Shown here in pieces: positions 45,235-64,000 of a stretch of DNA of 64,000 bases. The translations under genes and the position numbers were made by a program. The notes under the pieces are model-generated. The model did no database searches. It had not been told where the DNA came from and saw only the letters and a list, made by a program, of their open reading frames with translations. Origin of the DNA: Paenibacillus sp. R14(2021) (GTDB taxonomy: Bacteria > Bacillota > Bacilli > Paenibacillales > Paenibacillaceae); NCBI RefSeq assembly GCF_019431355.1, contig NZ_CP080269.1:1860001-1924000 (forward strand). The letters run 5' to 3'. Each line of letters starts with the position of its first letter. Positions within the stretch are counted from its first letter, which is position 1.

Positions 45235-46227
45235 TTAGCTTTGCTGTACAACATGCGTAAGCTCATGACTGAGCAGTTGAATGCCGCTTGCCGTATCCGG
45301 CTTAAATTCGCCTTGTCGGAAATAAATATCCGAACCCGTGGTAAATGCACGCGCGCCTACCTGTTTGGCCAGCTGGTCTGCCGCATTGTCCGTATGAATG
45401 GACACCTTGCTGAAATCCGCCTTGAACGAAGCTTCCAACTTCTTGCGAAGCGCATCCGGCAGCGGCTGTCCTTTGCCGCGGGATTCATCGATCGCCGCCT
45501 CCACCTTCGGACCGGCATCCTCCGGAGCTCCTTCGGCCTCCCGCTGAATGACCGCGAACGGATCGCGCTTCAGCTGCAGCTCCTCTTCTTCCGATTCGCC
45601 CTGTTCCATCCGCTGCAGCACGCCTGCGCTGTCTGGCTTCAGCTGCAGCTCCTCTTCCTCCGATTCGCCCTGCTCCATCCGCTGCAGCACGCCTGCGCTA
45701 TCCGGCTTCAGCTGGAGCTCCTCTTCTTCCGATTCGCCCTGCTCCATCCGCTGCAGGACGCCTGCGCTATCCGGCTTCAGCTGTAGCTCCTCTTCCTCCG
45801 ATTCGCCCTGTTCCATCCGCTGCAGGACGCCGGCGCTGTCCGACTTCAGCTGCAGCTCCTCTTCCTCCGATTCGCCCTGCTCCATCCGTTGAACGGGTTC
45901 GTCGCTCTTGCCGGAAGAGGCTTGAAGATCGTTCGCAACGCGAAACGACACCTGGTCCGCTTCTAATTCATAGGCATCCGTCGGTTGATTGATCGTCATC
46001 TTGGCCATGATCGGCTGCCGTCCGCCTGCTCCAATGAATTGACCTGCAGCTTGGTTGCCTACTGAACGCTGCAAGGCATGCATCTCAGCAGCTTGAAGCG
46101 GCGCTCCGCTTGCCAGCGCTCGCTGCAAAGGTGCATATGGGTTGGATTTGGAGCGAAGAGCAGCTTGTCCCTTGTAGCTGCTCTTGTCCATTTTCCGGAT
46201 GGATTTACCCGAACCGAATGTTTTCAC
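45235..46227 (-). CDS. DUF4157 (eCIS core domain) protein with acidic repeats
   Basis: 330 residues from GTG at 46227 (VKTFGSGK), eight bases after GAGGAGG; a frame back to 46317 lacks a ribosome site. There is no signal peptide. Residues about 78-100 (QPTDAYELEADQVSFRV) and the C-terminal part (PLPDALRKKLEASFKADFS, VSIHTDNAADQLAKQVGA, LLSHELTHVVQQ) are the DUF4157 pattern, including HELTH, a zincin-like HExxH. Between them are five near-identical 23-residue units of form QRMEQGESEEEELQLK. DUF4157 proteins with such acidic repeats occur with extracellular contractile injection systems, as cargo or cargo adaptors. This one ends right after the HExxH helix, so no toxin domain follows. Confidence 0.88.
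   Translation of the reverse strand: MKTFGSGKSIRKMDKSSYKGQAALRSKSNPYAPLQRALASGAPLQAAEMHALQRSVGNQAAGQFIGAGGRQPIMAKMTINQPTDAYELEADQVSFRVANDLQASSGKSDEPVQRMEQGESEEEELQLKSDSAGVLQRMEQGESEEEELQLKPDSAGVLQRMEQGESEEEELQLKPDSAGVLQRMEQGESEEEELQLKPDSAGVLQRMEQGESEEEELQLKRDPFAVIQREAEGAPEDAGPKVEAAIDESRGKGQPLPDALRKKLEASFKADFSKVSIHTDNAADQLAKQVGARAFTTGSDIYFRQGEFKPDTASGIQLLSHELTHVVQQS
45569..45896 (-). repeat. Tandem 69-base direct repeats within DUF4157 gene
   Basis: About 4.8 units of 69 bases starting near 45569, 45638, 45707, 45776 and 45845, differing by only a few bases. They encode the acidic 23-residue units and stay in frame if copies are gained or lost. Confidence 0.9.
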
Positions 46228-46344
46228 GATTACAGCCTCCTCGTATCGACACCATTCACGTACTTTTGCTACTAATATACCATATTTTAGCGAGTATGTA
46301 CGAGATGCGCGCAACAATAGTCACAGGCATGGCATGAACGAATA

Positions 46345-46381
46345 CAAAAAACCGCCCTGTCTGGAAACAGACAAAGCGGTA
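46345..46381 (-). terminator. Terminator after formaldehyde dehydrogenase gene
   Basis: Stem ACCGC..CTGTCTG / CAGACAAAGCGGT with loop GAAA, then TTTTTTG on the minus strand. Confidence 0.75.
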
Positions 46382-46389
46382 TTTCTCAC

Positions 46390-47604
46390 CTATCGTCTAA
46401 CGGATCCGTGTGGATCGATCACGAACTTCTTGGATGCGCCTTGATCGAACTCCGCATACGCGGCTGGGGCTTGATCTATTGAAATCAGCGTCGCGTTGAC
46501 GGCTTTGGCGATCTGTGCTCTGCCGCTCAGAATAGCGCTCATCAACTCGCGGTTATACTGCATTACCGGCGTTTGGCCCGTGACAAACGTATGCGATTTG
46601 GCCCAGCCGAGCCCGAAACGGATCTTGAGCGTGCCAATCTTGGCATCCTCGTCCACAGCACCCGGATCCCCGGTGACGTACAGCCCCGGTATGCCCAATC
46701 TGCCTCCTGCACGGGTCACTTCCATGATGGAATTAAGCACCGTAGCCGGCGCTTCGCCGTGCGCTTTACCGTGACCATGCGCTTCGAAGCCCACGCAGTC
46801 AATCGCGCAATCCACCTCGGGCACGCCAAGAATTTGGTCAATTTGCTCAGCGAGATTCGGATGCTCGCGCAGATTAACCGTCTCGCACCCGAAGCTGCGT
46901 GCTTGGGCAAGACGCTCGCTGTTCAAATCGCCGACGATGACGACCGAGGCGCCGAGCAGCTGTGCCGAATGGGCAGCCGCAAGTCCGACCGGTCCAGCGC
47001 CAGCGACATAGACGGTTGAACCCGGTCTCACCCCTGCGCTAACCGCGCCATGGTAGCCCGTCGGGAATATATCCGAGAGCATCGTCAGATCAAGAATCTT
47101 CTCCATCGCGCGATCCTTATCCGGAAATTTAAGCAGCTGGAAATCCGCATAAGGTACCATAACATACTCGGATTGGCCGCCTATCCAGCCGCCCATGTCC
47201 ACGTAGCCATAAGCTGAGCCCGGTCGGTCCGGGTTGACATTGGAACAGACATTGGTATTGCGTTCTTTGCAATTTCGGCAGCGTCCGCATGCGATGTTAA
47301 ACGGCACGGACACCAGATCGCCTTTCTTTATAAATTCAACGTCGCGGCCGACTTCGATGACTTCGCCCGTAATTTCATGGCCGAGCACTAAGCCGCTCGG
47401 AGCCGTCGTCCGGCCGCGAACCATATGCTGGTCGCTGCCGCAAATATTCGTCGTTATGACTTTCAAAATAACGCCATGCTCACATTTTCTGCCGACATTG
47501 AGCGGGTTGACACCTGGTCCGTCCCGCAGAATCAATTCCGGGTACGAGATATCGCGAACCGCTACTTTACCGGATTCCACATAGACTACCGCACGATTTC
47601 CTGA
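46390..47604 (-). CDS. fdhA: Glutathione-independent formaldehyde dehydrogenase (zinc MDR family)
   Basis: 404 residues from ATG at 47604 (MSGNRAVVY), after GGAGGAGAG. Zinc-dependent dehydrogenase with catalytic-zinc ligands in CGSDQH and GHEITGEV, four structural-zinc cysteines in CGRCRNCKERNTNVC, and the NAD site VAGAGPVGLAAAH. The long insertions (DRPGSAYGYVDMGGWIGG and the HGHGKAHGE stretch) match the Pseudomonas-type formaldehyde dismutase/dehydrogenase group of about 400 residues. It probably oxidises formaldehyde or another small aldehyde with NAD. It is isolated by terminators from both neighbours, so its place between eCIS-associated genes may be chance. Confidence 0.9.
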   Translation of the reverse strand, partial: SGNRAVVYVESGKVAVRDISYPELILRDGPGVNPLNVGRKCEHGVILKVITTNICGSDQHMVRGRTTAPSGLVLGHEITGEVIEVGRDVEFIKKGDLVSVPFNIACGRCRNCKERNTNVCSNVNPDRPGSAYGYVDMGGWIGGQSEYVMVPYADFQLLKFPDKDRAMEKILDLTMLSDIFPTGYHGAVSAGVRPGSTVYVAGAGPVGLAAAHSAQLLGASVVIVGDLNSERLAQARSFGCETVNLREHPNLAEQIDQILGVPEVDCAIDCVGFEAHGHGKAHGEAPATVLNSIMEVTRAGGRLGIPGLYVTGDPGAVDEDAKIGTLKIRFGLGWAKSHTFVTGQTPVMQYNRELMSAILSGRAQIAKAVNATLISIDQAPAAYAEFDQGASKKFVIDPHGSVRR

Positions 47605-47665
47605 CATGGTTTCAGTCTCTCCTCCGTGATCCATAGATTGGGCTGCCTCGTTCTTCACTCCTCAT

Positions 47666-47679
47666 TGTAATCGCTTCCA
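47666..47679 (-). promoter_or_regulatory. cre-like site before formaldehyde dehydrogenase
   Basis: Minus strand TGGAAGCGATTACA matches 12 of 14 positions of TGWAAGCGYTWNCA, 61 bases upstream of the start. Confidence 0.4.
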
Positions 47680-47730
47680 GTTGGAAAAGCTATCCTTACT
47701 TTTGTTTATTCTTCCATCCGAGAGGAAGTA

Positions 47731-47759
47731 AAAAAAAGAGGCTGCTAAGCGCGCAGCCT
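47731..47759 (-). terminator. Terminator of the pseudo-cyclase/GNAT/transporter operon
   Basis: Stem AGGCTGC / GCAGCCT with loop GCGCTTA, then eight T residues on the minus strand; the stem overlaps the last codons of the transporter gene. Confidence 0.75.
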
Positions 47760-50700
47760 TTCCGATTCTGTGTCAGGCAGGCGTCCGGCAATCGCTTGCT
47801 CCAGCATGCGGACTCTAGAGAGCGATGCTTTCAACAAACCTATGCCGATCTCAGGGTGAAGTCGAATCAGCTTTGCCATCTCCTCGCCTACCAAGGACAA
47901 GATACGTACATCCACGGATGCCCGGGCAGTCGCGGTTGCCGGCGTTCCATCGAGTGCGGAGGTTTCGCCGAAGACATCCCGAACCCCAAGCTCCGCAATA
48001 ACTCCACCTTGGCTTCCTCCGCTCACGAGCTGCACGGTGCCCTCTACGATGACACCAAGTTTCGCATTGGCTTGCGACGCGGTGACTAGCCGTGACCCAG
48101 CAGCGTGCGTTTCCTCCACGGCCACGCCGGCAATATAACCGAGCTCCTCTAGCGATAGATCGCTGAAGAATGGCACCTGCTTGAGGAAAACGACTTTATC
48201 CAGCATGCCCATCAGCTTATGCTCGCTCATTCCTGCTTCCTCCTTCTGCCGCAGCGCCTCAGATGCCAGCAATTGCAGCCACATATCTTGTTGAGCCGCC
48301 GCTGCGCGAAGGACAACATTTGCCTCCTCCGCTGACGGCAGCTCTGGAGCCGCGTCCTGCCAGACTTCCAGCAGCGTAATCAAGGCTCCACTCATACGTT
48401 TGTCGGCGGCTCCTTCCATGAGCGCCTCCAATCCGCTTTCCCGTATCTCTTCATCCGAATCTTCAACGGCACGTCTAACCGACTGGATCACGTCTTCTTC
48501 GCCCAGTCTTGCCATGACAAGCCATACGCCTCCGAGCACGAATCCCATGAGCTCTGTAAGCCGCATGCGGGCCAGCTCTGCCCGATCGGTGCGTTCATGA
48601 AGCAGCAGTGCGGATTCGATCTCGCGGTGCTTGCGCAGCTCCGCCAGCTTTGACAAGCAAGCCGGAATAAGGATTTCCTGGCATTGCGATTCATCCATCA
48701 GGCGTGCGAGGACTCGAACAGCTGCGCTCCACACCTTCGGCTGAGACTGCTCGATGACAAGCAGCAGCGTCTCGATCACGCCGCCGCCCATATCGATTAA
48801 GGCTTCAATCGTCACCTCGTACAGCGCTGGCTCCGCCCATTCCAGCTGCTCCAGCAGCCAAGGCACGACTTCATTATGCTGAAGCTTTCCCATGCAGGCA
48901 ATCGCGGCAGCGCGGACAGCCGGATCAAATTCGCCGAGCAGCACTTCGACGTCCTGCAGGAAGCTGTACATTCCCAGGTCCGCGATCACCCGGCACATAT
49001 ACACCGCAGGCTCGCCGCCTTCTTTCAAATATCGCTGAATGACCTCGTAGCAGGCCTCGAAGCTCTGTTCGTTTTGTAAAAAGTAGAGCGCCTTTACCGC
49101 CTCTGCGACGACTTTCGGATTGGCATCCAGCAGCTTCAAGCGGATGAAATAGACCGCCTGATGGGACATATGGGAAGCGCGGCCTAGCAGCCGCACCCCT
49201 TCCGCGCGCACCTCGTAATCAGGGTCCTCCAGAAACGAAGCCACCTTCACCAACGCCTGAAGCTCCGCGCGCTCCAAATTCATCGCCCGCAGCGATGCGA
49301 TGCGAATCCTCGCACTACGATCATCAACGAGCTTCAAGAGTGGTGCTAGATAAGAAGCATCCCGCGTTCGCCCAATCAATCCAAGCGCAATTTCTTTGGA
49401 ATAATCGTTAGGCGATTCAAGCAGCTGGCCAAGGAGCAGCGCCGAACGCCCTTCGCGCATAAACTCGTCGAACGCAGCGTCTAGGTCATGACCGGAATCC
49501 GTCATCTGCTGAACGCTGCGAACCAACTCGCGAATGTAGAAATACCGGCCGACATAAGCCAAGCCGACGAGACAGACAGCACCTGCGGCGCCATACCAGG
49601 CAAGCGTTTGAAGCTGCATGCCGAGACCGGCATGCAACGCCTGCAGCAGCGCGCCGATCAGAATGCCCGCCGACGCGGCAATCCCCTGTGCGACATAACG
49701 ATAACCGTCCCGCTGCCGAATGGGCAGCAGCTTGAAAAACAATTGATTGGCCGGTTCGGCAAAATAATAAAGCAGCAGGTAGAGGAACATGTAACCGACG
49801 GACAAGGCATATATAATGACGCTTGTCCCGAACGTAATCGCCGCAAGCAGAAATCCGCATGTGAAGACGATCGCAATGACCGGAAGCATGTTGCTTTGCC
49901 CCAGCCAGTTCATAATACGGGCGGACAGCAGCTGGAGTAGGAATGCGGCAGTAAACAACAGCGTCGTTATAAGTCCGAAGAACGAACCGAAAGACGCTTC
50001 CGTCGGATAATAGGTTCTGGACACGTTCAGAAACACGTATTCCATCAGGAAATATAAGGCCGGCATCAGCGTCATGACGCCGACCGCTATGAGCAGATAA
50101 GGCGTTGTAAAGGTGCGTTTGAAATAATCGGCCGAAGACAGTCCGCCCTCATCCGCAGCACGATTGCCGCTTCGTTCCTGCTTGAGCGTTAACGGAACCA
50201 AGTATGCTGCAATCGATTTCCAATAATTCACGCCGCCAGCAAGCATAAAGAGCGGTGCCAGCATATAGACGGCGTCTGCGCCAAGCCAGCGGCTCACGAC
50301 TTGCGCCAGCAATCCTGCAGCGATGCCGCCAAGCGCCGCCGATGAAACGAATACGGGCATAAGCCGCTTTCCTTGCTGCGTCGGACATAGGTCGACGGCC
50401 AAGCTCCACAGCAGGATCGTCTGCTGCCTGACCACGAAGCTCGAGCTCAGAAACAGGAACGGATAATAGGCGCTCATGCTGAAATCCGCTAAATGAAAGA
50501 TGAGCAGGACAACTGCATTACAAGCGATAATGATGCCCATGATAGCAAATAGCGTGCGCATCAGCTGCGGTTTGGACAGCCGGCTGGTCAACCAGGACAT
50601 GAACCAAGCCTCTAGCGGCATAATCACGGCTTCCGCCCCGTATACGTACGGCAAATACTCACTGCCGAACCGCTGATTGAACAGCGTCATGTACCCATTG

Positions 50701-50810
50701 TAATTCAGCATTTCGGCAATCCCGCACAGAAAAAAAACAGGCACCATCATCGCCAGCTTCCGCCGGTCATCGAATTTGGCGCCAATTGAGCGTAATAAGG
50801 TTTGATTCAT
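47745..50810 (-). CDS. NTT/MFS-like transporter fused to HEAT repeats and cyclic-nucleotide-binding domain
   Basis: 1021 residues in three parts. Residues 1-430 form about 12 membrane helices resembling ATP/ADP-translocase or MFS carriers. Residues 440-850 are HEAT-like helical repeats (for example YLAPLLKLVDDRSARIRIAS). Residues about 870-1005 are a cNMP-binding fold: FFSDLSLEELGYIAG, then the phosphate cassette VFGETSALDGTPATATARA. The Arg that normally follows Pro in this cassette (PRxAT) is Ala here, so cyclic-nucleotide binding may be weak or lost. It starts 3 bases after the GNAT gene. Function unknown; likely a membrane partner of the cyclase-like protein in the same operon. Confidence 0.85.
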   Translation of the reverse strand: MNQTLLRSIGAKFDDRRKLAMMVPVFFLCGIAEMLNYNGYMTLFNQRFGSEYLPYVYGAEAVIMPLEAWFMSWLTSRLSKPQLMRTLFAIMGIIIACNAVVLLIFHLADFSMSAYYPFLFLSSSFVVRQQTILLWSLAVDLCPTQQGKRLMPVFVSSAALGGIAAGLLAQVVSRWLGADAVYMLAPLFMLAGGVNYWKSIAAYLVPLTLKQERSGNRAADEGGLSSADYFKRTFTTPYLLIAVGVMTLMPALYFLMEYVFLNVSRTYYPTEASFGSFFGLITTLLFTAAFLLQLLSARIMNWLGQSNMLPVIAIVFTCGFLLAAITFGTSVIIYALSVGYMFLYLLLYYFAEPANQLFFKLLPIRQRDGYRYVAQGIAASAGILIGALLQALHAGLGMQLQTLAWYGAAGAVCLVGLAYVGRYFYIRELVRSVQQMTDSGHDLDAAFDEFMREGRSALLLGQLLESPNDYSKEIALGLIGRTRDASYLAPLLKLVDDRSARIRIASLRAMNLERAELQALVKVASFLEDPDYEVRAEGVRLLGRASHMSHQAVYFIRLKLLDANPKVVAEAVKALYFLQNEQSFEACYEVIQRYLKEGGEPAVYMCRVIADLGMYSFLQDVEVLLGEFDPAVRAAAIACMGKLQHNEVVPWLLEQLEWAEPALYEVTIEALIDMGGGVIETLLLVIEQSQPKVWSAAVRVLARLMDESQCQEILIPACLSKLAELRKHREIESALLLHERTDRAELARMRLTELMGFVLGGVWLVMARLGEEDVIQSVRRAVEDSDEEIRESGLEALMEGAADKRMSGALITLLEVWQDAAPELPSAEEANVVLRAAAAQQDMWLQLLASEALRQKEEAGMSEHKLMGMLDKVVFLKQVPFFSDLSLEELGYIAGVAVEETHAAGSRLVTASQANAKLGVIVEGTVQLVSGGSQGGVIAELGVRDVFGETSALDGTPATATARASVDVRILSLVGEEMAKLIRLHPEIGIGLLKASLSRVRMLEQAIAGRLPDTESERLRA

Positions 50811-50813
50811 ATG

Positions 50814-51344
50814 TTATGCACCATGTTTATTCGAATGTACTCGATGCCTGCCGAGCTTCAGGCTGTAGATCAGCCGGTCTTCGCCTTCAAAATAATAATC
50901 CGGACAGCGTCCTGCAAGCGAGAAGCCTGTCCGTTCGAAGAGCCGGCGAACAGGCGCGTATAATTCCGTATCGCATGTATAGGTAAGCACATACCGAGCC
51001 TCTTGAAATTCCAATACGCCAATCATGTCGTTCAGCAGCAGGGCCGCAATACCATGCCTGCGGAATGCTTTGTGAACGACGAGATAGTCAAGATAATACC
51101 CGCCTGTCTGCTGCTCGTTCTGCAAATAGCCAATTACGCCGATCATTTCATTCCGTTCATTCTTGACGAACCGATACGAATAATCCGATACCAGCGCCTT
51201 GAACGGATTGGTCTCGTAATGCTGAATTTCACCAGGCGTATGATTCATGTCGTCGAAGGAAACATCCGACAGGAAAAACTTGCTGATCAGCCTCGCATCC
51301 TCTTCCAGAAGAAGCGGCTCTACATGATACATCGTTTGCCTCAT
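50814..51344 (-). CDS. GNAT-family N-acetyltransferase
   Basis: 176 residues. The GNAT core is visible in NEMIGVIGYLQNE, YYLDYLVVHKAFRRHGIAALLLND (acetyl-CoA-binding motif A, R/Q-x-x-G-x-A form RRHGIA) and YAPVRRLFERTGF. It would acetylate an amine of a protein or small molecule; the acceptor is unknown. ATG after GAGGAGG. It lies 21 bases after the cyclase-like gene and 3 bases before the transporter gene, so it belongs to that operon. Confidence 0.88.
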   Translation of the reverse strand: MRQTMYHVEPLLLEEDARLISKFFLSDVSFDDMNHTPGEIQHYETNPFKALVSDYSYRFVKNERNEMIGVIGYLQNEQQTGGYYLDYLVVHKAFRRHGIAALLLNDMIGVLEFQEARYVLTYTCDTELYAPVRRLFERTGFSLAGRCPDYYFEGEDRLIYSLKLGRHRVHSNKHGA

Positions 51345-51365
51345 ACCGGTCTTCCTCCTCTATCG

Positions 51366-54146
51366 CTATGAAACAGCCAGCGTGCCGTTCCAATCGACAG
51401 CCGTGCCCCGTTGGAAATACTCGTCGCATAAATAGAAATACAGCTTTGCTGCTTTATCCATCCGGTTCCATTTAATCACTTCCACGAACGTTTCCCTCGC
51501 GTCGAAGAAGCGGCCTTCCTGGTACAGCCGAATGCCATGCTCGAACAATTTCTTCGTCTTGTCCTTGCCGGAGCGGAGAAGCTCGCTGTCGCCCTCGTAA
51601 ATATCATACAGCTCTACGGCCTCTTCCTTGCCCTCGATATGAATACGGCCGAGCCAGCGGTACTGAAACCGTTCAGGCGAATCCATGGATGCCATCGCTT
51701 CGCGGGTAACGAGGATGGAGACGCCGAGCGGCTCGGACAGCTCCTCCAGCTTCGAGGTCAGCGTCACATCATCGGAAATCACATTGCTTTCCATCTTCGT
51801 TTCCTCGCCGATAATGCCGAGCATAAGCGGTCCTTTGTGAATGGCGATGCCGATATCGACCGGACTTTTATTCGTTTTACCGCGATGGCCGTTATAGGCG
51901 ACAAGCTCCTTGCGGATCGCGATTGCAGCCTTAATGGCCTCTTCCGTCCTGTTCGGGAACAGCGTCATGAAGCCCGCGCCCAGATAGTTGCTGATTAATC
52001 CGTTCTCCTTGCGGACAAGCGGACCGAAGCGGCTGAGAAACGAATTCATGAAGTTAAAGTTTTCCTTCGGCGTCAGACGTTTCGACATTTCATAGAACGT
52101 ACGCAGCTTCGTGACCATAACGACCATGTTCTGCTGCACTTGATCGCCCAAATGCACATCCAGAATGCCCCGCTTACCCAAATACTTGAACACCTGCTGC
52201 GGCACGAAACGGAAGGAAGCTTCACTGAACGCCGTAATATCATTGATATACTGCCGGATATGCCGCACCATGAGGTTGAATTGCTGCCCCAGATCGGCCA
52301 CTTCGTCGCTGGAACGGATATGTACTTCTGCATCCCAATTTCCGTTCGTAATTTCGGTGACGCTTTTGCGAAGCTTCCGAAGCGAAGCGAGCAGGAAATA
52401 GGAAGAAATCATGAACACGAGCAGAATCAGGATGGTAATAATCGTAATATTTTTGAAGATCGACCTATTAATGGTGGAATTCTCGGTACGCAGTACGTTC
52501 AAATCGCGGCCCGTCTCATAGATGCCGACAATGGCGCCCTTGGAGTTATATACCGGCGCGATCGCATACGTCCATTGACCGTTCGCGTCCTCCCAGCTTC
52601 CGCTCATGACCTGTCCTTGCTCCACGACCGGCAAATTATTCTCCGTCAGCGGAAACGGCTTGAACATGTTCACCCCGTCATCGTCGTCTGCGATGATGTA
52701 GAGCTTACCGTTCTCGTATTTATAAACCGTGCTGTAAAGCCCGCGGCGGTCGATGCTGCTGTCATGCTGAAAAAGCACGTTCATTCGCTGTTTGATTTCC
52801 TGGTAGTCGACGTTCATAAAGTCATTCGGCGAAGTAAGGCGTTCCAGCCGATCGCCGTCGATAATATATTTGCCGCTCTGTGCCAGAACGGACAGCTCCC
52901 GCTTCATCTCCTCTTCCATCTTGCCGGAGAAGCCGTCATATATGGAGTTGGACAACACGATCATCGAAACGATAATGAGCGGCACGAACGCGACCATCTG
53001 TTTCAGGAAGAATGAAATCCGCCTTCTCATCACATGCAGGTAGATCAGCCAGCAAACAGCGATCAGCAGCAAGACGCTTCCTGCGGCAGCTCCCCATACA
53101 AGCCACAAACGGAATTGCTCGCTACCGCTAAAGGTGATTTGATCGGTTAAGGAAGTCACGGCACCGTTACTGCTTTGTTTCATAATGCGATCAGCCAGCA
53201 GAATGTCCATGCTTCCGTCGGCATGAAGATGAAAGTCGCCAATCTCCACGCTCTCCGCCAGCGGAGCAGCAGCCGTCAGCGTCTTCTCTTCTAACAAGAG
53301 CGAAATCGGACTCGTTAAGTCAGGCGTCAATCTCGTAACCGCATTGATGGAACGATCCACAAAGGTTAAACTCCCGTTGCCGTCCAGCTTGAGCCGCTCG
53401 GGAAAGTTTTTACGTGTCTGCTCCATACCTGCAACAGGATAGAGCCTGCTACTTGTACCGTCCGAAGCGACGCTGTAGATCGCGCCGCGCTTGGTTGTAT
53501 AGTAAATTGCGCCGGGCTCCGTTCCGTAGACTTCCGATAGATAGCGGTTAGGCGGCAGCTGGAACGCAAACGGCTGCTCCCATTTGCCGCTGACCAGCGA
53601 GAGCTGCTTCTGCTGCACCTCGTTTTGACGACTGATGAAGAACGAAAGCGTATCGCCCTTGATTTGCAGCGATCTGAGCTGCCCGATTCGCTTGCTCGTA
53701 TTGTCGCCCTTCCATTGGAAAAGCACTTTGTCCAGCTTGCCCGCGGACGTGTAACGGATGATTTCCTCTGCATTCACATACAAGCCGTATGTATCCAGCT
53801 CCGTATTGATCACGTACAAGCGTCCGCTGTCATCCACGGCGATTTCCGAGAAGTTGCGCCGATTGCCGCTCTTCTGATTGATGCGGTATTTGAGCGTACC
53901 GTCTTTATCGATGGCTTCGATCTGCTGCTTCGCGCTGCTGATGACATATACGCCGCCGCTCGTGTCCTCCGCCATGGCAGAGAGGTTACTGAGGGGTATG
54001 TTCGTTTGCGTGGGGCCTTGCTTCAGCTCGCTGCTATGTATGGCTGCATACGTCGTTAGTCCTATTAAACATACCGTTAGAATCGCAAGCCATGATAGTC
54101 CTATACTCCGATTATGCAGTGAACTGCGCGACTTCTTCCTTTTCAT
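51366..54146 (-). CDS. Membrane receptor with degenerate class III nucleotidyl-cyclase domain
   Basis: 926 residues from ATG at 54146 (MKRKKSRSS); a frame to 54245 runs into upstream sequence. Order: membrane helix at 13-36; NHL/beta-propeller-like sensor to about 335 (GGVYVISSAKQQIEAIDKDG-type blades); two helices; a Cache-like extracellular domain; a fourth helix near 570; HAMP; class III cyclase fold at about 650-830; helical TPR-like tail. The cyclase fold has lost its catalytic residues: the first metal Asp (FaDIRgF) is Lys in MVTKLRTF, the second (GDg) is Ala in YLGAGFM, and the Asn and Arg of NxxSR are Thr and Lys in VTLTSKLEEL. It is therefore probably a binding or signalling pseudoenzyme. 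First gene of a three-gene operon, divergent from the PAAR-like gene. Confidence 0.85.
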   Translation of the reverse strand: MKRKKSRSSLHNRSIGLSWLAILTVCLIGLTTYAAIHSSELKQGPTQTNIPLSNLSAMAEDTSGGVYVISSAKQQIEAIDKDGTLKYRINQKSGNRRNFSEIAVDDSGRLYVINTELDTYGLYVNAEEIIRYTSAGKLDKVLFQWKGDNTSKRIGQLRSLQIKGDTLSFFISRQNEVQQKQLSLVSGKWEQPFAFQLPPNRYLSEVYGTEPGAIYYTTKRGAIYSVASDGTSSRLYPVAGMEQTRKNFPERLKLDGNGSLTFVDRSINAVTRLTPDLTSPISLLLEEKTLTAAAPLAESVEIGDFHLHADGSMDILLADRIMKQSSNGAVTSLTDQITFSGSEQFRLWLVWGAAAGSVLLLIAVCWLIYLHVMRRRISFFLKQMVAFVPLIIVSMIVLSNSIYDGFSGKMEEEMKRELSVLAQSGKYIIDGDRLERLTSPNDFMNVDYQEIKQRMNVLFQHDSSIDRRGLYSTVYKYENGKLYIIADDDDGVNMFKPFPLTENNLPVVEQGQVMSGSWEDANGQWTYAIAPVYNSKGAIVGIYETGRDLNVLRTENSTINRSIFKNITIITILILLVFMISSYFLLASLRKLRKSVTEITNGNWDAEVHIRSSDEVADLGQQFNLMVRHIRQYINDITAFSEASFRFVPQQVFKYLGKRGILDVHLGDQVQQNMVVMVTKLRTFYEMSKRLTPKENFNFMNSFLSRFGPLVRKENGLISNYLGAGFMTLFPNRTEEAIKAAIAIRKELVAYNGHRGKTNKSPVDIGIAIHKGPLMLGIIGEETKMESNVISDDVTLTSKLEELSEPLGVSILVTREAMASMDSPERFQYRWLGRIHIEGKEEAVELYDIYEGDSELLRSGKDKTKKLFEHGIRLYQEGRFFDARETFVEVIKWNRMDKAAKLYFYLCDEYFQRGTAVDWNGTLAVS

Positions 54147-54365: not shown

Positions 54366-54752
54366 GTGGGTCAGCTTGTTTGTCAAGGCGCCATGCTGCA
54401 ATGTTCGTTCGGCATGGCACCCAGTGCGCTCAATGTACTGCCGGCCAACCGGGTCATGACCATGACGCCGATCGCCAACATTATGGACAACAAGCCGATG
54501 GTCAACGTTATGCCTTTCGGCATGTGCAGCTCCATGGCTAATCCCCAGGTTGCCGCCGCGACGGCTGCTGCGCTCGGTGTATTAACACCCATGCCTTGCA
54601 TCCCGGTTACGGCTGCACCATGGGTTCCAGGCTCACCGACGGTTCTCGTCGGCAATATGCCCGCATTAAACAATTCCTCGAAATGCATGTGCAACTGGGG
54701 CGGCGTTATTCAAATCTCGGTCGCCGGCCAGTTCACGATACAGGTGCCCTAA
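54366..54752 (+). CDS. PAAR-like spike-tip protein (DUF4280)
   Basis: 128 residues from GTG at 54366, eight bases after AAGGAG. DUF4280 pattern: GQLVCQGAMLQCSFGMAPS, Cys and Gly-Pro turns, MPFGMCSSMANP, CIPVTAAPWVPGSPTVLVG and KCMCNWGGVIQI. These small beta-rich proteins cap the spike of contractile injection systems and carry conserved cysteines and histidines that may hold a metal. Its stop overlaps the ATG of the next gene (TAATG). Its placement with Baseplate_J and tail genes on the right supports this role. Confidence 0.88.
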   Translation: MGQLVCQGAMLQCSFGMAPSALNVLPANRVMTMTPIANIMDNKPMVNVMPFGMCSSMANPQVAAATAAALGVLTPMPCIPVTAAPWVPGSPTVLVGNMPALNNSSKCMCNWGGVIQISVAGQFTIQVP

Positions 54753-56731: not shown

Positions 56732-56737
56732 CGATAT

Positions 56738-56773: not shown

Positions 56774-56783
56774 AAACTAGGAC

Positions 56784-58469
56784 TTATGACTTCTCCTTGC
56801 CGGCGGCTGCTTCGCGCATGGCTGCAATGCTCCCGGCGGCTGCTGCCGCCGATTCCACGAGGACTGCCGAATCGGCGCCAGGCAGCTTCTTGAAGGCCCA
56901 CCAGCGCAGCTTGATCGCCGATGTCTCTGTCGCTTGGCTCAGCTTCATGCCAATGCGGAATGATCCTTTGGCCGGATAAACGATCGTGCCGAAGGTCACG
57001 CTCGGCAGCTGGGACTCAAACTCGCTGCCTTTAAACACGTCCGATGCCCCGTAATACACCTGATCGCTCGCTTGCAGCAGATCGGAGGTCACGTTAATGT
57101 CCTTGTCTTCCAGTCCGACCATAACGTAGAGCTGTCCTTCCCCCAAGCCGCTTTCAATTTCTCCGGTGACATAATTCTTCTGGCCGCGGGAGAAGAAGTA
57201 CAAGCCGCTCTTGCTGCTTGGCTCCATCTCCACGGTTACGGTGCCTGTCGCCATCTCATCCTGCATATGCTGCGGCTGAGGCACGCCGAGCTTGAAGGCA
57301 AACTCGCTGCGCTCTGGGTTGTAGCTCACATCCAGCTCAGGCGCCTTGCCGTACGGAAGCTGGAATGCTTCCGACGACGTGAAGAACTTCGCGTTGTTCT
57401 CTCTTCCGCCCGAACCGCCTACGCGCTGAAGGTGGGAAGGATTGTACACGTACTCGCCGAACGGCACACGGTCCACGCTCTCGATCATGTAAGTCGGCCC
57501 CATTTGAAGAAGGCTGATCTTCGCCAGGCACACGCTTTGCTCCGACACGCCGTCGATGGATTGATCCAGTGTTCGGTTGTAATAATCGCGCATGATGCGA
57601 TCCGCCGCGGCGGCTTTAATCACTTCGACTTCATGGCTCGGGCTGCTGTCCAGCGGAATGCGCGAATCGCCGATCGTGAGCAAGGCATTCGAGGCTAGGA
57701 GCGACAGTGAAGCTTTGCGTCCTTCCGCCCAATTTGCCGCTTTCACCGAATAGGTATACGTATATTCAGTCTCTTGTCCATCGCCAGGCTCCGTAAATTG
57801 AATGCTAGTTTTGTCCGTACCAACAGGCGTGAAGCCTTCGCAGGCATAGTCAAAGGCGAATGAGATCTTCGGCGTCTGCAGCGTCTTCTCGACGACAAGC
57901 GTTACATCCACGATGCTTTCCGGGTTCACGTATTTGGGCATTCGCTGGTAGATGCGGACTTGACCGTCCTGATAGATGGGCGCTATGCTCTCCGTCAATT
58001 GCACATGCTCGAAGGAAGCCGGATCCGGCGCCTCCTCCTTGATGAACAGCCGGTAGCTTTCCAATACGCGGTTGTATTCGCTGACATCCTCGGAACGAAC
58101 CGCGGAGTTCGCAATCGCATGAACAGGCTCCTTGCCCTTCTCGTCATAGGCGACGTAGAGGTAGACGTTCTTCTTGTACTCATTGTTCGTGAAGCCATCG
58201 ATCATGGACAGCTTCAGCGTCGTCGGTGAAGGAATGACGATTTCGCGGCCGGCGTAATCGAGTGCCACGCCCATTTCCACGGTAATGGATTTATCGTCCA
58301 CCGCAACCACATGCATGCCGGACACGACGCCGCTGCCGACGAGCAGACGGTTCATCAGACGGCGCTTGTCGCCGAGATACTTTTGCTCGGACTCGAAATC
58401 GCGGACCGTCAGCAATTTTCCATAGAAATACCGATTCCGCTCAAAAGGGTAATACCTGCTCTTCTTCAC
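56784..58469 (-). CDS. Conserved tail/baseplate-associated protein of contractile systems
   Basis: 561 residues from GTG at 58469, eight bases after AGGAG. The start FERNRYFYGKLLTVRDFESE and the following DKRRLMNRLLVGSGVVSG form a block I have seen in proteins beside baseplate genes of eCIS-like loci, where they are usually unnamed. The rest is beta-rich with no membrane segment. Last gene of the operon that enters from the right edge; 33 bases after the tail-protein gene. It may be a baseplate accessory or fibre-like part; no firm function. Confidence 0.75.
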   Translation of the reverse strand: MKKSRYYPFERNRYFYGKLLTVRDFESEQKYLGDKRRLMNRLLVGSGVVSGMHVVAVDDKSITVEMGVALDYAGREIVIPSPTTLKLSMIDGFTNNEYKKNVYLYVAYDEKGKEPVHAIANSAVRSEDVSEYNRVLESYRLFIKEEAPDPASFEHVQLTESIAPIYQDGQVRIYQRMPKYVNPESIVDVTLVVEKTLQTPKISFAFDYACEGFTPVGTDKTSIQFTEPGDGQETEYTYTYSVKAANWAEGRKASLSLLASNALLTIGDSRIPLDSSPSHEVEVIKAAAADRIMRDYYNRTLDQSIDGVSEQSVCLAKISLLQMGPTYMIESVDRVPFGEYVYNPSHLQRVGGSGGRENNAKFFTSSEAFQLPYGKAPELDVSYNPERSEFAFKLGVPQPQHMQDEMATGTVTVEMEPSSKSGLYFFSRGQKNYVTGEIESGLGEGQLYVMVGLEDKDINVTSDLLQASDQVYYGASDVFKGSEFESQLPSVTFGTIVYPAKGSFRIGMKLSQATETSAIKLRWWAFKKLPGADSAVLVESAAAAAGSIAAMREAAAGKEKS

Positions 58470-58502
58470 ACGATCAACTCCTAAAAATGGATTGAACTTG
58501 TA

Positions 58503-60629
58503 CTACTCGATTTCCGAATCCAGGCCAAGCCTTGTATGTAAATCCAGCCGCCGGTCGCGGTCCACATCAACGATAATCGTGTCGCTCGGCATCGAGCGGC
58601 TTGGATCGATGCGCAGAAGGGACGGCTCCGACAAGAGCGTATTGACTTCCAAATACGTGTGCATATCCAAGTACATCCACGGCTGAAGGACGATGAGCCG
58701 CGCTTCCGTGAAGGCGGGCTTCTGCTCATCCAGCATGCGCTGAAGCATATGACGATGCTTCTCCGTCGGCGCCTGCTCCGTCGTGACAAGCACAGAGAAG
58801 CTGCAAGCGTGCATGCCGTAAAGCATATCCGTCAATTGACGCAGCTCGGCGGATTCCCGCATCATTTTGTACTCGAAGTATTCGACGATGTGCGGCTTGC
58901 TGCCGGTATAAATCTCGACCATCTTCTCGATCCCCCGGCGCGTCCCACGGTATCGGTACAGCTGAGGGGCTTCGCGAATGAAGCGCCGGATCTGATCGTC
59001 GTTCCAATGCTCATCGACTTCGATGCCGAGCCAGCTCCCCAGCCATTTGAGGTACGGCCCCTCCGCAAGCTCGCTGTCGAGGTGCCTCGGCAGCTCGTCC
59101 GCCTGCGCCTCCACGCTGTCGAACATCGTGCCGAACAACGCCAGGAACCGTTCCATGAAGCCGCTCGGATCCTCCTGATAAATCGCAGGCAAATGAGACA
59201 AGTAGGTGTTTCTTGGAAAAACAATGCGCAGCTTCGACAAGCAGGGCGTTTTGCGCTCGCTTCCGATCCATTCGATCTTCAGCCACATGTAGCGACCCTT
59301 GGCATTGAAGAACAGCGCATCTCCTGGATTCGTTACGGGCGGCGACCAGAAGGGCGCCAAGGTTCTGATTTTCTCCGGCATGTCACGTCTTGGGTCGCAA
59401 ATGAAATCGTCCATAAGCAGCATGCGCCCGTCAATAATTTGGTAGAGAGAATCCGAACAGAAGTACGAAATGCGCACCTGTGTCTCATCCGGAAAATCGC
59501 CTTCCAGCACCATTTTGTGCCAGACCGTCTCTGCTTCCGTGCTGTCGAGCGCCGTCGTAAGACAGACGCCTTCCAGTCGGCCGGTATCTTCGCTTTCCAG
59601 CGTCCTCGGCTGGAGCTCCAGCACCGTTACCGTTCCTTCTTCGGCGTTCAGAATGTACATCCGGTCCCGGGCGTCGAACATCAGCTTGTCCGCTTTACCG
59701 CGGAAGCCGGGTACCTTGTTGATCATCTCGCCCGTCTCGCCCAAATTCAGCACGAACCGGTCGTCTTCACCCTCGTCGGCGATGTACCGGGAATCCCCGA
59801 TGTACAGCTGATTCTGCGAATCGACAGCGAGTCCCGCGAACCGCAGCGACGGCAGGTAAATGCGGGAAATCAGCTCCCCGCTTTTTGCGAATCCGTGCAG
59901 AATATGCGCCTCGCTGTCAAAGACATATACGCCGCGCTCCGGTGTTACGGCCGCATAGAAGCGCTTGTACAGGAAGCGAAGCTTCACGGCTGATTTCAGC
60001 AGCCATTTCTCATCCGTGCAGATGCCGACGAACTGTCCGCTGCGGTCGATTTGGACGACGGCAAGTCCCGTTCCCGCAGGCACGACGGCCTCGCCGTCCT
60101 CATGCTGCTCCACCTTCAGCGGCGTGACGATGTAGAAGCAATGCTCGTCGGATGCCGCTGCTAGCGGGTGCAGCTCGATGTCCTTGCAATGCGTTAAGCT
60201 CCAATAGGTTTGCGCATTCCCAATTGCGTAGGCTGCGCAGCGCTGCTGCTCGGGATCCGCGACAAGCAGCGTCTCACCGATGACGGCCAGCATGGATCGA
60301 ACGCCGAATAATCCATGACCGCTTGGAAACAGCTTCTCGTGATGATGGCTCTCGGCATCGTACATCCACACATCGCTGGCCTGATCCAGTACGTACAAAC
60401 GGCCGTAAGGGCCGATGACGAACTCGTGGGCTTCATGCATGCCGTCCAAATCCTGCAGGCGAAGCGTGTTCCGAATGCCGTATTTTTGCGTTTGCGCGAT
60501 CTGCAGTCCCTTCGGCGTCCATTCCAAATTCGATTTACTGCTGCCCGCCCAATCGCTTTCCTTGTTGAGCGAGAAAAACAGCGTGTCCTGCTCCAGTTCG
60601 TCCACCTCCTCACGGCCTGCGGCATTCAA
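58503..60629 (-). CDS. P2 gpI-like tail protein with N-terminal beta-propeller
   Basis: 708 residues if the TTG at 60629 is used. A CTG at 60596 has the much better ribosome site (GAGGAGG, eight bases), so the start is uncertain. Residues to about 480 contain propeller-type repeats (GRLYVLDQASDVWMYDAES, NQLYIGDSRYIADEGED, DRMYILNAEEGTVTVLEL). The C-terminal part is the phage tail protein I pattern: NTYLSHLPAIYQEDP, LARHLD-like DELPRHLDSELAE, YLKWLGSWLGIEV and YRYRGTRRGIEKMVEIYTG. In contractile machines this protein joins the baseplate wedge to receptor-binding parts. It follows the Baseplate_J gene by 17 bases. Confidence 0.85.
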   Translation of the reverse strand: MNAAGREEVDELEQDTLFFSLNKESDWAGSSKSNLEWTPKGLQIAQTQKYGIRNTLRLQDLDGMHEAHEFVIGPYGRLYVLDQASDVWMYDAESHHHEKLFPSGHGLFGVRSMLAVIGETLLVADPEQQRCAAYAIGNAQTYWSLTHCKDIELHPLAAASDEHCFYIVTPLKVEQHEDGEAVVPAGTGLAVVQIDRSGQFVGICTDEKWLLKSAVKLRFLYKRFYAAVTPERGVYVFDSEAHILHGFAKSGELISRIYLPSLRFAGLAVDSQNQLYIGDSRYIADEGEDDRFVLNLGETGEMINKVPGFRGKADKLMFDARDRMYILNAEEGTVTVLELQPRTLESEDTGRLEGVCLTTALDSTEAETVWHKMVLEGDFPDETQVRISYFCSDSLYQIIDGRMLLMDDFICDPRRDMPEKIRTLAPFWSPPVTNPGDALFFNAKGRYMWLKIEWIGSERKTPCLSKLRIVFPRNTYLSHLPAIYQEDPSGFMERFLALFGTMFDSVEAQADELPRHLDSELAEGPYLKWLGSWLGIEVDEHWNDDQIRRFIREAPQLYRYRGTRRGIEKMVEIYTGSKPHIVEYFEYKMMRESAELRQLTDMLYGMHACSFSVLVTTEQAPTEKHRHMLQRMLDEQKPAFTEARLIVLQPWMYLDMHTYLEVNTLLSEPSLLRIDPSRSMPSDTIIVDVDRDRRLDLHTRLGLDSEIE

Positions 60630-60646
60630 ATGCGGCCCTTGTACGT

Positions 60647-62983
60647 CTATACGCTATTTCGGCTGATTAACTCGATTTCGTGCTCGCCGGAGTAGACCAA
60701 GCCGTACGGTGGAAGCTCGATATCCCCGCCTGATGACTTCGCCCAACCTGCACCCTGAGCGTCTAGCCAGAGCTCCTGAATATAAGCGACGCCTTTCATC
60801 TCGTTCATGACGCCGAACAAATCGCCTTTATACACCGTTCGCCCGAACGTCCAGCCTTTAGAGCCGTCGCGTCCATCAAGCGGCTTCAGCAGCTTGTTCA
60901 GCGCGGACACGATCTGCCTGCCCTCGTCAACGAAATGCGGCTCGACCACGATAACGGCATGCACGGTAATTCCGATATACGCCGGCGCAATGACATGAAC
61001 CTCCGTCGTAATCAGCCTTCGCTCGTCCAAATGGCGCTTGACCGACTGCAGGAAGCCCGGACTCGGCGTCGGCGTCTTGGACGGGCTGTACGGCACGACA
61101 GCAACGGTCAACTGCCCGGGCGCTTGGCTGCGCGGGTAATCCTTCAGCCCTTTCATGTAGAGCGGCAGCGCTTTGACCCTTGCGACTCGCAGTCCGGGGG
61201 TCCGGGCAACAATCGACTCCACATCCTCAGCCGTTACGGCGCGGAAAGGCTGCTGCAGCTCATGGCGAACCCGCTCGATGCACGCTTCCAGCGTTTCCTT
61301 CTCCGTTCCTCCGGAAGCAAACTGATGGTTCGTTACGCTTAAGCTTGCCGCGGCGTAATCCAGCTCCGGCTGAATCGAAACGATCTCGTTAATCAGATGC
61401 GGCTTGACATTCCCTCTTGTTCCTCCGCCGACTTCGCATGCGATCACACAAATATTCGGCTCTTCGCAGGCAGCCGGAACACGTCCGCGTTCATTATCCC
61501 CAAACCGCAGCTCTCGTTCCTCTGCATGAAATACGAAATGGCGGTCTTCCGGACCCGAGTTATCAAAATGTTCAACCTCCAGCCAATCCTCCCACAGCCA
61601 TTCGGCATCCGACTGTTTACGGCCGATTTGAAGAGTGAACCTTCCGTTCTGCAGCGGATCATCGTAAACGGGCAGCTTCTGGCGGGGCAGTCCGTTCGTG
61701 CGCCCGATAAACGCCTGATTCTCGAACGCTTCCGTATAGGCAATTATGCGCATTGTATTTCTTCCGAGTACGGGAATTGTCTCCGTCTCGCTGCCTGCGA
61801 ATGTAATCTGCGCTTCGCCGAGTTCCGTCAGCTGCTGCAGACGGAACGTCCGCTTCACCTGCGCGACAGCTGAATGAATGTCGGCCTTGGCGGTCTCATG
61901 CCAGTCCACCCAGCTGCCGTCTTCCGTACGAGATTGCACGCGAATGCGGCCAAAGGCTGCCAAATACGATGATACGCGCACCTGTTGAACCTCTTCGCCG
62001 TTGCCGTCCGCATAGAACAGCTCACTGAACGTTTCTTGCTGCACGGCCTGCACTGTGTTAAGCGCAATATGTTCGATGCGCGGAGGATTCTCGTAGCCTG
62101 CCTGCTCCACCGTACAGCAAAACCAATAGCGGCCGCGATCGTTGGCTGGATGCACCATAACCGGCAGCATGCCATGCGGTACCTTGAACGTCATTTTGCC
62201 GCTGTACATAAGGTGAACCGTCTCGTCCTGTTCGACTTGCAGCGGCATCCATGCCGACTGGCCGCCTGCCCGTGCAGTGATATCCGCCATTTCGAGCTCG
62301 TTCGAATCTGCGGCCTGTACCGCGTTCGCGCCTGAATCGTCAACGCTGCTTCCGTAGAACTTCCAAGAAACCTTGGCCGACGGCACGATTGTCTTGTATG
62401 CGTCTTTAATTGGCGTGAGCGGAACGATGCCGTCGTCATAAAGGGTGAACGCCATTGTGATCGTATCACCCGGCAACAGCTCGCGGTCAAATGCGACATA
62501 AAGTCGGTTGCCCTTGTGGGCCTCAGGTCCAAACGCAAAGAAAGAGACGCCGACATGATCGTTCGTCGACGTATAATCGTTCGCTTCTTTCTCGGTTCGG
62601 ACGAGTATCCGCTCGATACTGGCCGGATGCAGCGTGAGCGGAACGACCGTCTCAAACGGTTGATCCTGCGCAAGCAGCTTCGTTCCCTTCGGCAGCACGC
62701 GGCTGCGATCGGCGCCTGTGAAGCTCACTTCGGTATGCGCGCTGTGCGCCAGCTGCGGCTTTGCCCCAAGCAGCTTCAAAAATTTCAGCTGGTTCCGTTC
62801 CGGAACGCGGTTGATGTAGAACTGCTGCATTTCACTCAGCCAAGCGAACAGCTCGATCATCGTGATGCCGGGATCATGTGCGTTCTCATCCGTCCACTCC
62901 GGCAAAAATTTTGGAATCGCCTTGCGCGCTTCCTCCACGATTTGCTGAAAGCGGCGGTCATCCAAATTAGGCGTCGGCAGCAT
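60647..62983 (-). CDS. Putative baseplate assembly protein (Baseplate_J-like)
   Basis: 778 residues, ATG with GGAGGTG upstream. N-terminal block FLPEWTDENAHDPGITMIEL and FAWLSEMQQFYINRVPERN is typical of the large eCIS/phage baseplate assembly protein. The central Baseplate_J core has RFGDNERGRVP, VGGGTRGNV, ASGGTEKETLEACIERV and FRAVTAEDVESIV. It forms part of the wedge ring around the spike. Tandem with a second protein of the same fold to its right, as in Afp11/Afp12-like pairs. Confidence 0.9.
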   Translation of the reverse strand: MLPTPNLDDRRFQQIVEEARKAIPKFLPEWTDENAHDPGITMIELFAWLSEMQQFYINRVPERNQLKFLKLLGAKPQLAHSAHTEVSFTGADRSRVLPKGTKLLAQDQPFETVVPLTLHPASIERILVRTEKEANDYTSTNDHVGVSFFAFGPEAHKGNRLYVAFDRELLPGDTITMAFTLYDDGIVPLTPIKDAYKTIVPSAKVSWKFYGSSVDDSGANAVQAADSNELEMADITARAGGQSAWMPLQVEQDETVHLMYSGKMTFKVPHGMLPVMVHPANDRGRYWFCCTVEQAGYENPPRIEHIALNTVQAVQQETFSELFYADGNGEEVQQVRVSSYLAAFGRIRVQSRTEDGSWVDWHETAKADIHSAVAQVKRTFRLQQLTELGEAQITFAGSETETIPVLGRNTMRIIAYTEAFENQAFIGRTNGLPRQKLPVYDDPLQNGRFTLQIGRKQSDAEWLWEDWLEVEHFDNSGPEDRHFVFHAEERELRFGDNERGRVPAACEEPNICVIACEVGGGTRGNVKPHLINEIVSIQPELDYAAASLSVTNHQFASGGTEKETLEACIERVRHELQQPFRAVTAEDVESIVARTPGLRVARVKALPLYMKGLKDYPRSQAPGQLTVAVVPYSPSKTPTPSPGFLQSVKRHLDERRLITTEVHVIAPAYIGITVHAVIVVEPHFVDEGRQIVSALNKLLKPLDGRDGSKGWTFGRTVYKGDLFGVMNEMKGVAYIQELWLDAQGAGWAKSSGGDIELPPYGLVYSGEHEIELISRNSV

Positions 62984-63004
62984 AGACGTTCACCTCCTTC
63001 CTGG

Positions 63005-64000
63005 CTAGTTCGTTTGTACGTGAACCTTATGCGAACCGCTGCACAGCAGTGCATGCGGGAATTGCGATTGTTTGGCCGGATCGATTTCGGTTCTGGTTCC
63101 GTCCTCGACCTTCACCATGGACAAATAGAGTTTATCGATGTTTTTGATCGAGCGAATTGATTTGAGCAGGGAATAAAACAACGACGGATGCAGTGTTTCG
63201 CCGATTTCCCATCCTCGGCCGTCCAGCTTTCCCTTCAGCGGATCCAGGAACAGCGTCAATTTGTCGATGCATGCCGTTTCTGTGGGCAGCACGTCATCAA
63301 GCGCTTCAACTGTCACGACGACCGTCACGGACACCTCTAGGAAAGCAGGCGCAATGACTTGCACGGACGGCGCATGGGCAACTGTATTTGCAGCTCGCTC
63401 AATCAAATAAGCTTCAATCTGGCGTTTCAATGCCGGGAACAGCGCGTAGCCTCTTTCACCCGGTACAGAGAGCGCGACCAGCGTAATCGAACCTAAGCTG
63501 TGCTCCATGTACACGTTCCGGTTCGGCAGGCATTTGACCTTCGTTAGTCCGGGATACGCTTCTCTAGCCAGCCACTCGAAATCCTCCGCTGTTACGGCGC
63601 GGCCTTGATGCTTGAGCCGCTGCGGTCCGCGCAGCATCGCCGCTTCCAGCCGTTCCGTGTGGCAGCCCCCGCCTGCAGGCTCCGGGTTGGTTGCTCCAGC
63701 GATAAATGCGATCGATTGCAGCAGACCCTTGATTTCGCCTGCACCGATATTGCCTTCTTCGCCGGCCGTGACTTTATAGTTGACGCGAATGCTGTCCGGA
63801 CCTCCGCCCGGAACCGCACGCCCGTGAATGCCTTCGCCGAACGTGATTGTGCCGGCAGAGCCATCCAGTACGTAATGCCGATCATCGGCAGCAGAAGCAA
63901 GGAACGAATCGACGCCGCTCCATCGTACCCATACGCGCTGCACAAGACCTTCGCTGTCGTAAAGCACTTCGATCGATTCCGGCGACTGGCGTACATGGGC
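63005..64000 (-). CDS. Second Baseplate_J-like protein (5' end outside window)
   Basis: Frame open from 64000 to the stop at 63005, 331 residues without a start in the window. Baseplate_J core: ITFGEGIHGRAVP, VTAGEEGNIGAGEI, then the GGGCHTERLEAAMLRGPQ and GRAVTAEDFEWLA blocks equivalent to those in its neighbour. Separated by 21 bases from the next gene. Further particle genes would be expected upstream, beyond the right edge. Confidence 0.87.
   Translation of the reverse strand, partial: AHVRQSPESIEVLYDSEGLVQRVWVRWSGVDSFLASAADDRHYVLDGSAGTITFGEGIHGRAVPGGGPDSIRVNYKVTAGEEGNIGAGEIKGLLQSIAFIAGATNPEPAGGGCHTERLEAAMLRGPQRLKHQGRAVTAEDFEWLAREAYPGLTKVKCLPNRNVYMEHSLGSITLVALSVPGERGYALFPALKRQIEAYLIERAANTVAHAPSVQVIAPAFLEVSVTVVVTVEALDDVLPTETACIDKLTLFLDPLKGKLDGRGWEIGETLHPSLFYSLLKSIRSIKNIDKLYLSMVKVEDGTRTEIDPAKQSQFPHALLCSGSHKVHVQTN

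Follow-up and report, generated by a model that had tools for sequence, protein, structure and literature searches.

The stretch analysed here, the window, comprises 64,000 nucleotides of the genome of the soil bacterium Paenibacillus sp. R14(2021), a single contig of 5.98 Mb (NZ_CP080269.1, window at positions 1860001-1924000). It holds the left part of a gene cluster for a contractile injection particle, together with genes for a cyclase-like receptor (CYC), a GNAT acetyltransferase, a transporter-like protein with HEAT repeats and a cyclic nucleotide (cNMP)-binding domain (NTT), and a membrane MORN protein. Coordinates follow window numbering, and numbers above 64000 lie to the right of the window. 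The genes listed below were named from Pfam profile matches, reading of the open reading frames (ORFs) and comparison with relatives.

45235-46317, - strand: DUF4157 (eCIS_core) protein (PF13699, E 4.3e-30)
46390-47658: dehydrogenase
47745-50810, - strand: NTT, with an MFS/TLC-like membrane domain, HEAT repeats and a degenerate cNMP-binding domain (HEAT_2, E 3.8e-23; cNMP_binding, E 1e-10)
50814-51344, - strand: GNAT acetyltransferase (PF00583, E 3.4e-10)
51366-54146, - strand: CYC, HAMP-cyclase-like receptor (PF00211, E 5.8e-13; PF00672, E 5.5e-9)
54366-54752, + strand: DUF4280 PAAR-like spike tip (PF14107, E 3.6e-38)
54752-56731, + strand: MORN rod protein, predicted to be membrane-anchored (MORN Pfam match, AlphaFold model)
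56784-58469, - strand: g561, candidate fibre or CIS13-like protein (CIS13_fam match, partial fold matches)
58503-60629, - strand: gpI/Tail_P2_I baseplate protein, CIS12-like (PF09684, E 2.7e-11)
60647-62983, - strand: Baseplate_J protein 2 (PF04865, E 5.9e-16)
63005-66091, - strand: Baseplate_J protein 1, crossing the window edge at 64000
66117-80446, all - strand: rest of the particle genes, right of the window
69012-73169, - strand: tape-position protein, 1385 residues, named by its position in the cluster

Beyond the window edge, the order is gp25, spike (Phage_base_V), hub (Phage_GPD), a CIS_tube/LysM protein, the tape-position protein and tube2, followed by a chaperone-like protein, tube1, sheath, g277 (a conserved unknown protein of 277 residues between the sheath and cap genes), a DUF4255-type cap protein and an AAA+ ATPase (AAA, E 3.4e-35). 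The names of tube1, the chaperone-like protein and the cap come from reading and from conservation in relatives, without a Pfam call of their own. The sheath, tube, spike, gp25 and Baseplate_J genes of a contractile injection set are present in one cluster, accompanied by the AAA+ ATPase, cap and DUF4157 proteins that mark extracellular contractile injection systems (eCIS), and the contractile injection particle encoded here is complete. This bears out an earlier, sequence-only reading of the window as a contractile injection locus; the genes on which it drew (two Baseplate_J proteins, a gpI-like protein, DUF4280 and a DUF4157 protein with acidic repeats) lie where it had placed them, as do the MORN membrane protein and the receptor, GNAT and transporter-HEAT-cNMP trio, which have Pfam matches. 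Its description of the locus as partial does not stand, since the incomplete look arises because the window ends at 64000 inside the Baseplate_J protein 1 gene; extending the search rightward, as that reading had proposed, yielded sheath, tube, tape-position and AAA+ ATPase genes up to 80446. The tape-position protein is arginine-rich (213 K+R vs 119 D+E) with recurring QRR motifs, and relatives match parts of it only. The DUF4157 protein contains 23-residue acidic repeats and has the DUF4157 domain at its end, besides which the Pfam scan gave no further domain, and its gene contains a tandem repeat of 69 bp in 4.7 copies.

The sequence-only reading would have been refuted by adjacent head genes, the mark of a prophage, or by a lack of sheath and tube genes within about 30 kb; neither is the case here. 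A decaying prophage tail cluster would agree with the phage homology of the tail genes and with sheath relatives in 1365 phage records, all below 60% identity. However, the cluster ORFs are intact, the AAA+ ATPase, DUF4157 and cap-type proteins are present, and the flanks are housekeeping genes by ORF reading, a few of them confirmed. No phage head or packaging gene was present in the ORFs read over about 37 kb to the right of the ATPase, and PHROGs, applied to ten flank and locus proteins that include a subset of the flank ORFs, returned no head or packaging family. The prophage reading was rejected on these grounds, and we give it next to no credence.

The layout of CYC comprises four transmembrane helices predicted from hydropathy, two predicted outer modules, a HAMP domain, a pseudo-cyclase domain and a C-terminal tail; its listed ORF extends to 54245, and relatives indicate the ATG at 54146 as the probable start. 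The roles of the two metal-position aspartates in CYC, and of the phosphate-binding arginine (PBC position) in cNMP-binding domains, we take to be those generally held for these protein families. In an alignment of 76 distinct CYC sequences, including those of the window and of genome G438, the first metal position was N in 65, K in 6, S in 2, and Q, D and a gap in one each, and the second was A in 66, P in 8, S in 1 and a gap in 1; both catalytic aspartates were kept in 0/76. The nearest stand-alone cyclase relatives from three genomes of the host's family, 34-38% identical to CYC, kept both in 3/3. Among the CYC proteins of a second bacterial order, that of genome G512, one aspartate is kept in G647 and in one copy each in G631 and G662, none keeps both, and several domains are more degenerate than the family copies. 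The PBC position of NTT was S in 81, A in 6 and T in 1, without arginine in 88/88 distinct sequences; an arginine occurs two residues earlier in 7/88, and the PBC arginine is kept in paralogous NTT-like and cNMP proteins (L080-L082). By these residues, CYC is predicted to be a catalytically dead pseudo-cyclase, and the cNMP site of NTT is likewise predicted to be dead. A plasmid search with CYC gave four records with partial matches to the cyclase region, none covering 80% of the query.

The presence of cyclase and cNMP domains in neighbouring genes, with Pfam scores above the gathering cut-offs, could still be taken to mean that CYC makes cyclic nucleotides with metal ligands of an unusual kind and that NTT is the receptor for them. 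With the aspartate pair and the PBC arginine missing throughout both alignments, and with several domains of the second order in a worse state, we find this highly improbable, and a cyclic-nucleotide relay was rejected on the site residues of both proteins. The nucleotide signalling suspected in the sequence-only reading is unsupported, because the cyclase and cNMP sites are degenerate.

To analyze the linkage of these genes with the injector, sheath, NTT and CYC were each searched for in one common set of 295 family genomes. A close sheath, defined as one match at >=67% identity, was detected in 43 genomes, full-length NTT in 44, whole or fragmentary CYC in 44 and all three in 43, so that CYC and NTT were both present in 43/43 close-sheath genomes. 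Fisher's test gave 2e-49 for each of CYC and NTT, a value that is descriptive only and overstates independence, because the family genomes share ancestry. Sheath and CYC were on one contig in 37/43 genomes, at a median distance of 24 kb. A further 22 family genomes with other sheath types, for which two candidates were scored per genome, contained no CYC at E 1e-40 and no full-length NTT; nine of the 22 were searched deeper, with the same result. One more genome (G082) has CYC, GNAT, MORN, PAAR and g561, along with the particle genes as far as that of the LysM protein, and no sheath was found in it.

An NTT scan of named genomes, which overlaps with the 295 and is not independent of them, revealed 77 loci (103 pattern matches), nearly all from Paenibacillus or Cohnella; the nearest named relatives of the host were Paenibacillus sp. 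CF384 and P. lignilyticus, and the scan also reached Ammoniphilus resinae (Paenibacillaceae in NCBI) and a Bacilli metagenome genome. Within 10 kb of NTT, CYC was found in 61 loci, GNAT in 62, and PAAR and MORN in 56 each. The dehydrogenase, counted as an internal negative control for the neighbourhood, was near NTT in only 2/77 loci and was rejected as a member of the set for that reason. With PAAR and MORN counted as particle genes, one or more such genes were present in 67/77. PAAR and CYC were divergent, with MORN on the PAAR strand, in 56/56 loci holding PAAR and CYC, and NTT occurred in two layouts, either after CYC or at the ATPase end. GNAT proved a usual neighbour and was rejected as an obligatory one, none being seen beside CYC in G160, G254, G143 and G150. 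Ten NTT genomes lacked any particle gene in the flank; a whole-genome search for a sheath was positive in five of them. P. radicibacter, sheathless in its whole-genome search, has five stops in its CYC, and its NTT is partial; a Syntrophomonadaceae genome without sheath has only a 30% NTT relative; and two metagenome-assembled Paenibacillus genomes have CYC beside NTT with no sheath match. In P. silviterrae and in G028, NTT sits away from the injector.

The search was extended to a phylum set of 299 genomes, ten of which had a sheath match, the window's own counted. In G438 (68% sheath), CYC lies 41 bases from the cap gene and MORN adjoins g561, with no full-length NTT, while G498 has only a sensor-MFS protein, away from the sheath contig. 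In the order of G512, a sheath was detected at E 1e-60 in 10/176 genomes. MORN and CYC were present in the fetched clusters of G512, G603 (cut at the contig end), G623, G631, G647, G658 and G733; the clusters of G646 and G662 are cut, and whole-genome search located CYC on another contig together with g561 and MORN. The same search of G652, whose cluster is also cut, gave no CYC at E 1e-10. Across this order, MORN and CYC occur among the particle genes in 9/10 sheath-bearing genomes. A relative's gene order led us to expect CYC next to PAAR in G631 and G662, and each of these genomes proved to carry two copies at that place. These CYC proteins are far diverged, with 21-37% identity to the window CYC where measured, and several clusters have MORN and PAAR as separate genes that do not adjoin. 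In G623, a further protein has the CYC sensor part fused to an MFS transporter (MFS_1, E 1.7e-29) and lies beside g561; this recurrence of a transporter-type partner weakly suggests that sensor and transporter work together. The co-occurrence in the family, the gene order of relatives and the recurrence in another order strongly support the earlier assignment of the membrane and signalling-like genes to the locus, and two of them, CYC and MORN, travel with the injector in two orders.

NTT was rejected as an obligatory injector partner outside the family, where no full-length copy was found in nine sheath-bearing genomes. The same result bears on the possibility that NTT imports or exchanges nucleotides powering particle assembly or recovery, the module being metabolic support and no switch. 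The TLC ATP/ADP transporter model does match 3/9 aligned NTT orthologues (best E 3.5e-9), but the window protein is unmatched by it, and its membrane part has an MFS match only, below the cut-off. Since this explanation also leaves the HEAT repeats, the pseudo-cNMP domain and the receptor unexplained, we regard it as very unlikely.

The MORN ATG at 54752 overlaps the PAAR stop by one base, and the assigned MORN start lies -1 to +2 bases from the PAAR stop in 30/69 loci (some genomes counted twice). In type VI systems, effector genes often come after PAAR genes, and this counts for a view of the pair as tip and effector, in which MORN is cargo and CYC and NTT, as bystanders, are under selection for some other role in the envelope. 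However, one MORN family is kept in 56/77 NTT loci and in the second order, where it is non-adjacent to PAAR in several clusters, and CYC tracks the injector too closely for a bystander (43/43 close-sheath genomes). We consider MORN cargo unlikely. The MORN protein is predicted to be bitopic; its AlphaFold model has a mean pLDDT of 77.6.

At the baseplate, the Tail_P2_I protein matches NCBIfam CIS12_fam (E 3.3e-57) and g561 matches CIS13_fam over residues 9-159 (E 4.7e-34), both below the family cut-offs. Fold search of a g561 model of moderate confidence (pLDDT 66.8) identified a macroglobulin/cohesin-like and C3-like fold in part; the crown of the thylakoid contractile injection system (tCIS) and TssK were not among the matches listed, which excludes nothing, and the Anabaena All3314 protein (7b5h) was a weak sequence match (E 0.068). 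C3/macroglobulin-like folds are also described, in the accessible text of PMC12923769, for the eBAP3 fibres common in Bacillota. Such folds and the CIS13-like N-terminus of g561 would fit an ordinary released eCIS in which g561 is the fibre, CYC, GNAT and NTT time production or release, and MORN acts as an assembly scaffold; in its favour too, no CYC or NTT output domain is known to touch the particle. Yet the ten left-side proteins scanned include no transcription factor, kinase or DNA-binding domain, and g561 is well conserved (mean column identity 63% over 25 sequences), unlike a fast-diversifying receptor-binding fibre. Its conserved residues reach into the C-terminal part. A released particle is the main rival explanation, somewhat unlikely in our judgement though a serious contender.

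The reading we favour, and in which we place about half of our confidence, has the injector docked at the envelope and gated by a receptor through contact between proteins. A contact-gating receptor at the envelope with a MORN anchor accounts most simply for the linkage, the joint losses, the dead sites and the predicted membrane topology; the gene conservation and the degenerate sites are observed, and from them and the topology we infer docking and gating. The particle would assemble in the cytoplasm, and its PAAR tip and baseplate would meet the inner membrane side through the MORN protein, composed of a cytosolic basic helix, one membrane helix and, outside, the MORN rod and a wall-facing domain. 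The outer modules of CYC may read an extracytoplasmic signal, which CYC would relay by contact via HAMP and pseudo-cyclase. In this family, the NTT-HEAT-pseudo-cNMP protein would act with CYC to license docking or firing, and no cyclic nucleotide would be needed. Such an injector could be the counterpart, in this phylum, of the membrane-gated Streptomyces CisA system, probably built from different parts.

Several points weigh against an envelope-docked, gated injector, besides the shared ancestry behind the Fisher value and the lack of full-length NTT outside the family. Physical contact between the module and the particle is presumed, the outward side of MORN is suggested by charge and fold hints only, and the fold matches of the MORN C-terminal domain are near the level of common arrangements, with OspA rows at similar Z. 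Genome G048 has a complete-looking particle with PAAR, MORN and a sheath matched in two pieces, and neither CYC nor NTT; G012 keeps NTT with neither sheath nor CYC found, and cl123 keeps NTT and GNAT, again with neither sheath nor CYC found. No full-length CYC was detected in sheath-bearing G389, G477, G493, G295, G458 and G469 of the phylum set. g561 could be a fibre, fitting a released particle, and a fibre from a different Paenibacillus eCIS has guided injection into other cells (PMC12923769, accessible text). Present evidence fits both gating and a released particle with receptor-controlled production or release, and cannot separate the two.

Among known systems, the locus resembles class III adenylate/guanylate cyclase receptors in its HAMP and Guanylate_cyc domains and differs from them in that the injector-linked copies examined lack the pair of catalytic aspartates. 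It would share with the Anabaena tCIS a membrane-anchored injector, besides the g561 match to All3314; to our knowledge, no MORN protein or receptor is known there. According to the accessible text of PMC12237407, the Anabaena tCIS is anchored by a baseplate extension, and the Streptomyces coelicolor contractile injection system requires the bitopic protein CisA for contraction. As in S. coelicolor, a membrane protein, here predicted to be bitopic, is encoded just after the baseplate genes, and the CIS12 and CIS13 matches are a further likeness. In CisA, the cytoplasmic N-terminus is disordered and the outer domain is substrate-binding-like, in place of the MORN rod, and that text mentions no cyclase-like receptor or NTT; the likeness of MORN to CisA would be functional, and homology is not claimed. 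The eBAP3 eCIS of Bacillota share the Tail_P2_I adaptor, C3-like fibre folds and Paenibacillus hosts, but according to PMC12923769 (accessible text) Afp12 homologues are for the most part missing from them, in contrast to the two Baseplate_J proteins encoded here.

Paenibacillus eCIS and their fibres are already in print (PMC12923769, PMC8213781), and the words 'cyclase' and 'MORN' are absent from the main texts of both papers. In our literature search, contractile injection was not found linked to MORN repeat, guanylate cyclase, cyclic nucleotide-binding or Cohnella; HEAT repeat and adenylate cyclase were not found together, and eCIS and MORN only in an unrelated context. In passages of one paper where contractile injection and adenylate cyclase met, the cyclase was a two-hybrid reagent. 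We found no description of a pseudo-cyclase receptor, MORN protein or NTT with contractile injectors, though supplements and subscription papers, outside the search, may list such domains. The locus touches the question of how a cytoplasmic contractile injector makes contact with a membrane when CisA is lacking. With rather more doubt than belief, we propose that, in two or more orders of the phylum, this type of injector is an envelope machine, docked from within by a wall-facing MORN anchor and fired by touch from a dead receptor cyclase, a second independently built membrane-gated kind beside CisA. CYC would represent a receptor lineage in which the cyclase fold persisted and catalysis disappeared, with a partner that lost its cyclic-nucleotide site.

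Two further groups of proteins were mapped in the relatives:

L180:913-3930; L170:3336-6326; L171 (G498): sensor-MFS fusion receptors, one beside the injector g561, the others elsewhere
L168:3395-4237; L176:12989-13876; L177:3385-4299; L188:7629-8480: 280-304-residue protein adjoining g561 in the second order

The latter lies between g561 and CYC or MORN and has no confident Pfam family. Close to the sensor-MFS protein of G498 (L171) is a HAMP receptor whose end was read as phosphatase-like, and the G512 cluster contains an outer-membrane-efflux (OEP)-like protein (L168:8108-10270, E 1.5e-11). G389 (L173) carries another injector subtype, with two tandem sheath genes and a DUF4157 protein; neither CYC nor NTT was present at full length. 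In G082 (L195-L196), an ORF of more than 6700 codons occupies the expected place of the tube and sheath genes, beside otherwise intact baseplate, MORN and CYC genes, and in G028 (L064) a stop interrupts the sheath gene, with CYC intact and NTT and GNAT about 2 Mb away. Next to the injector ATPase of G048 (L083:1-5810), a 1936-residue open frame encodes a poly(A)-polymerase head and ubiquitin C-terminal hydrolase domains; its product is possibly cargo. In the window itself, a GGDEF diguanylate cyclase protein is encoded to the left of the cluster (39495-40697).
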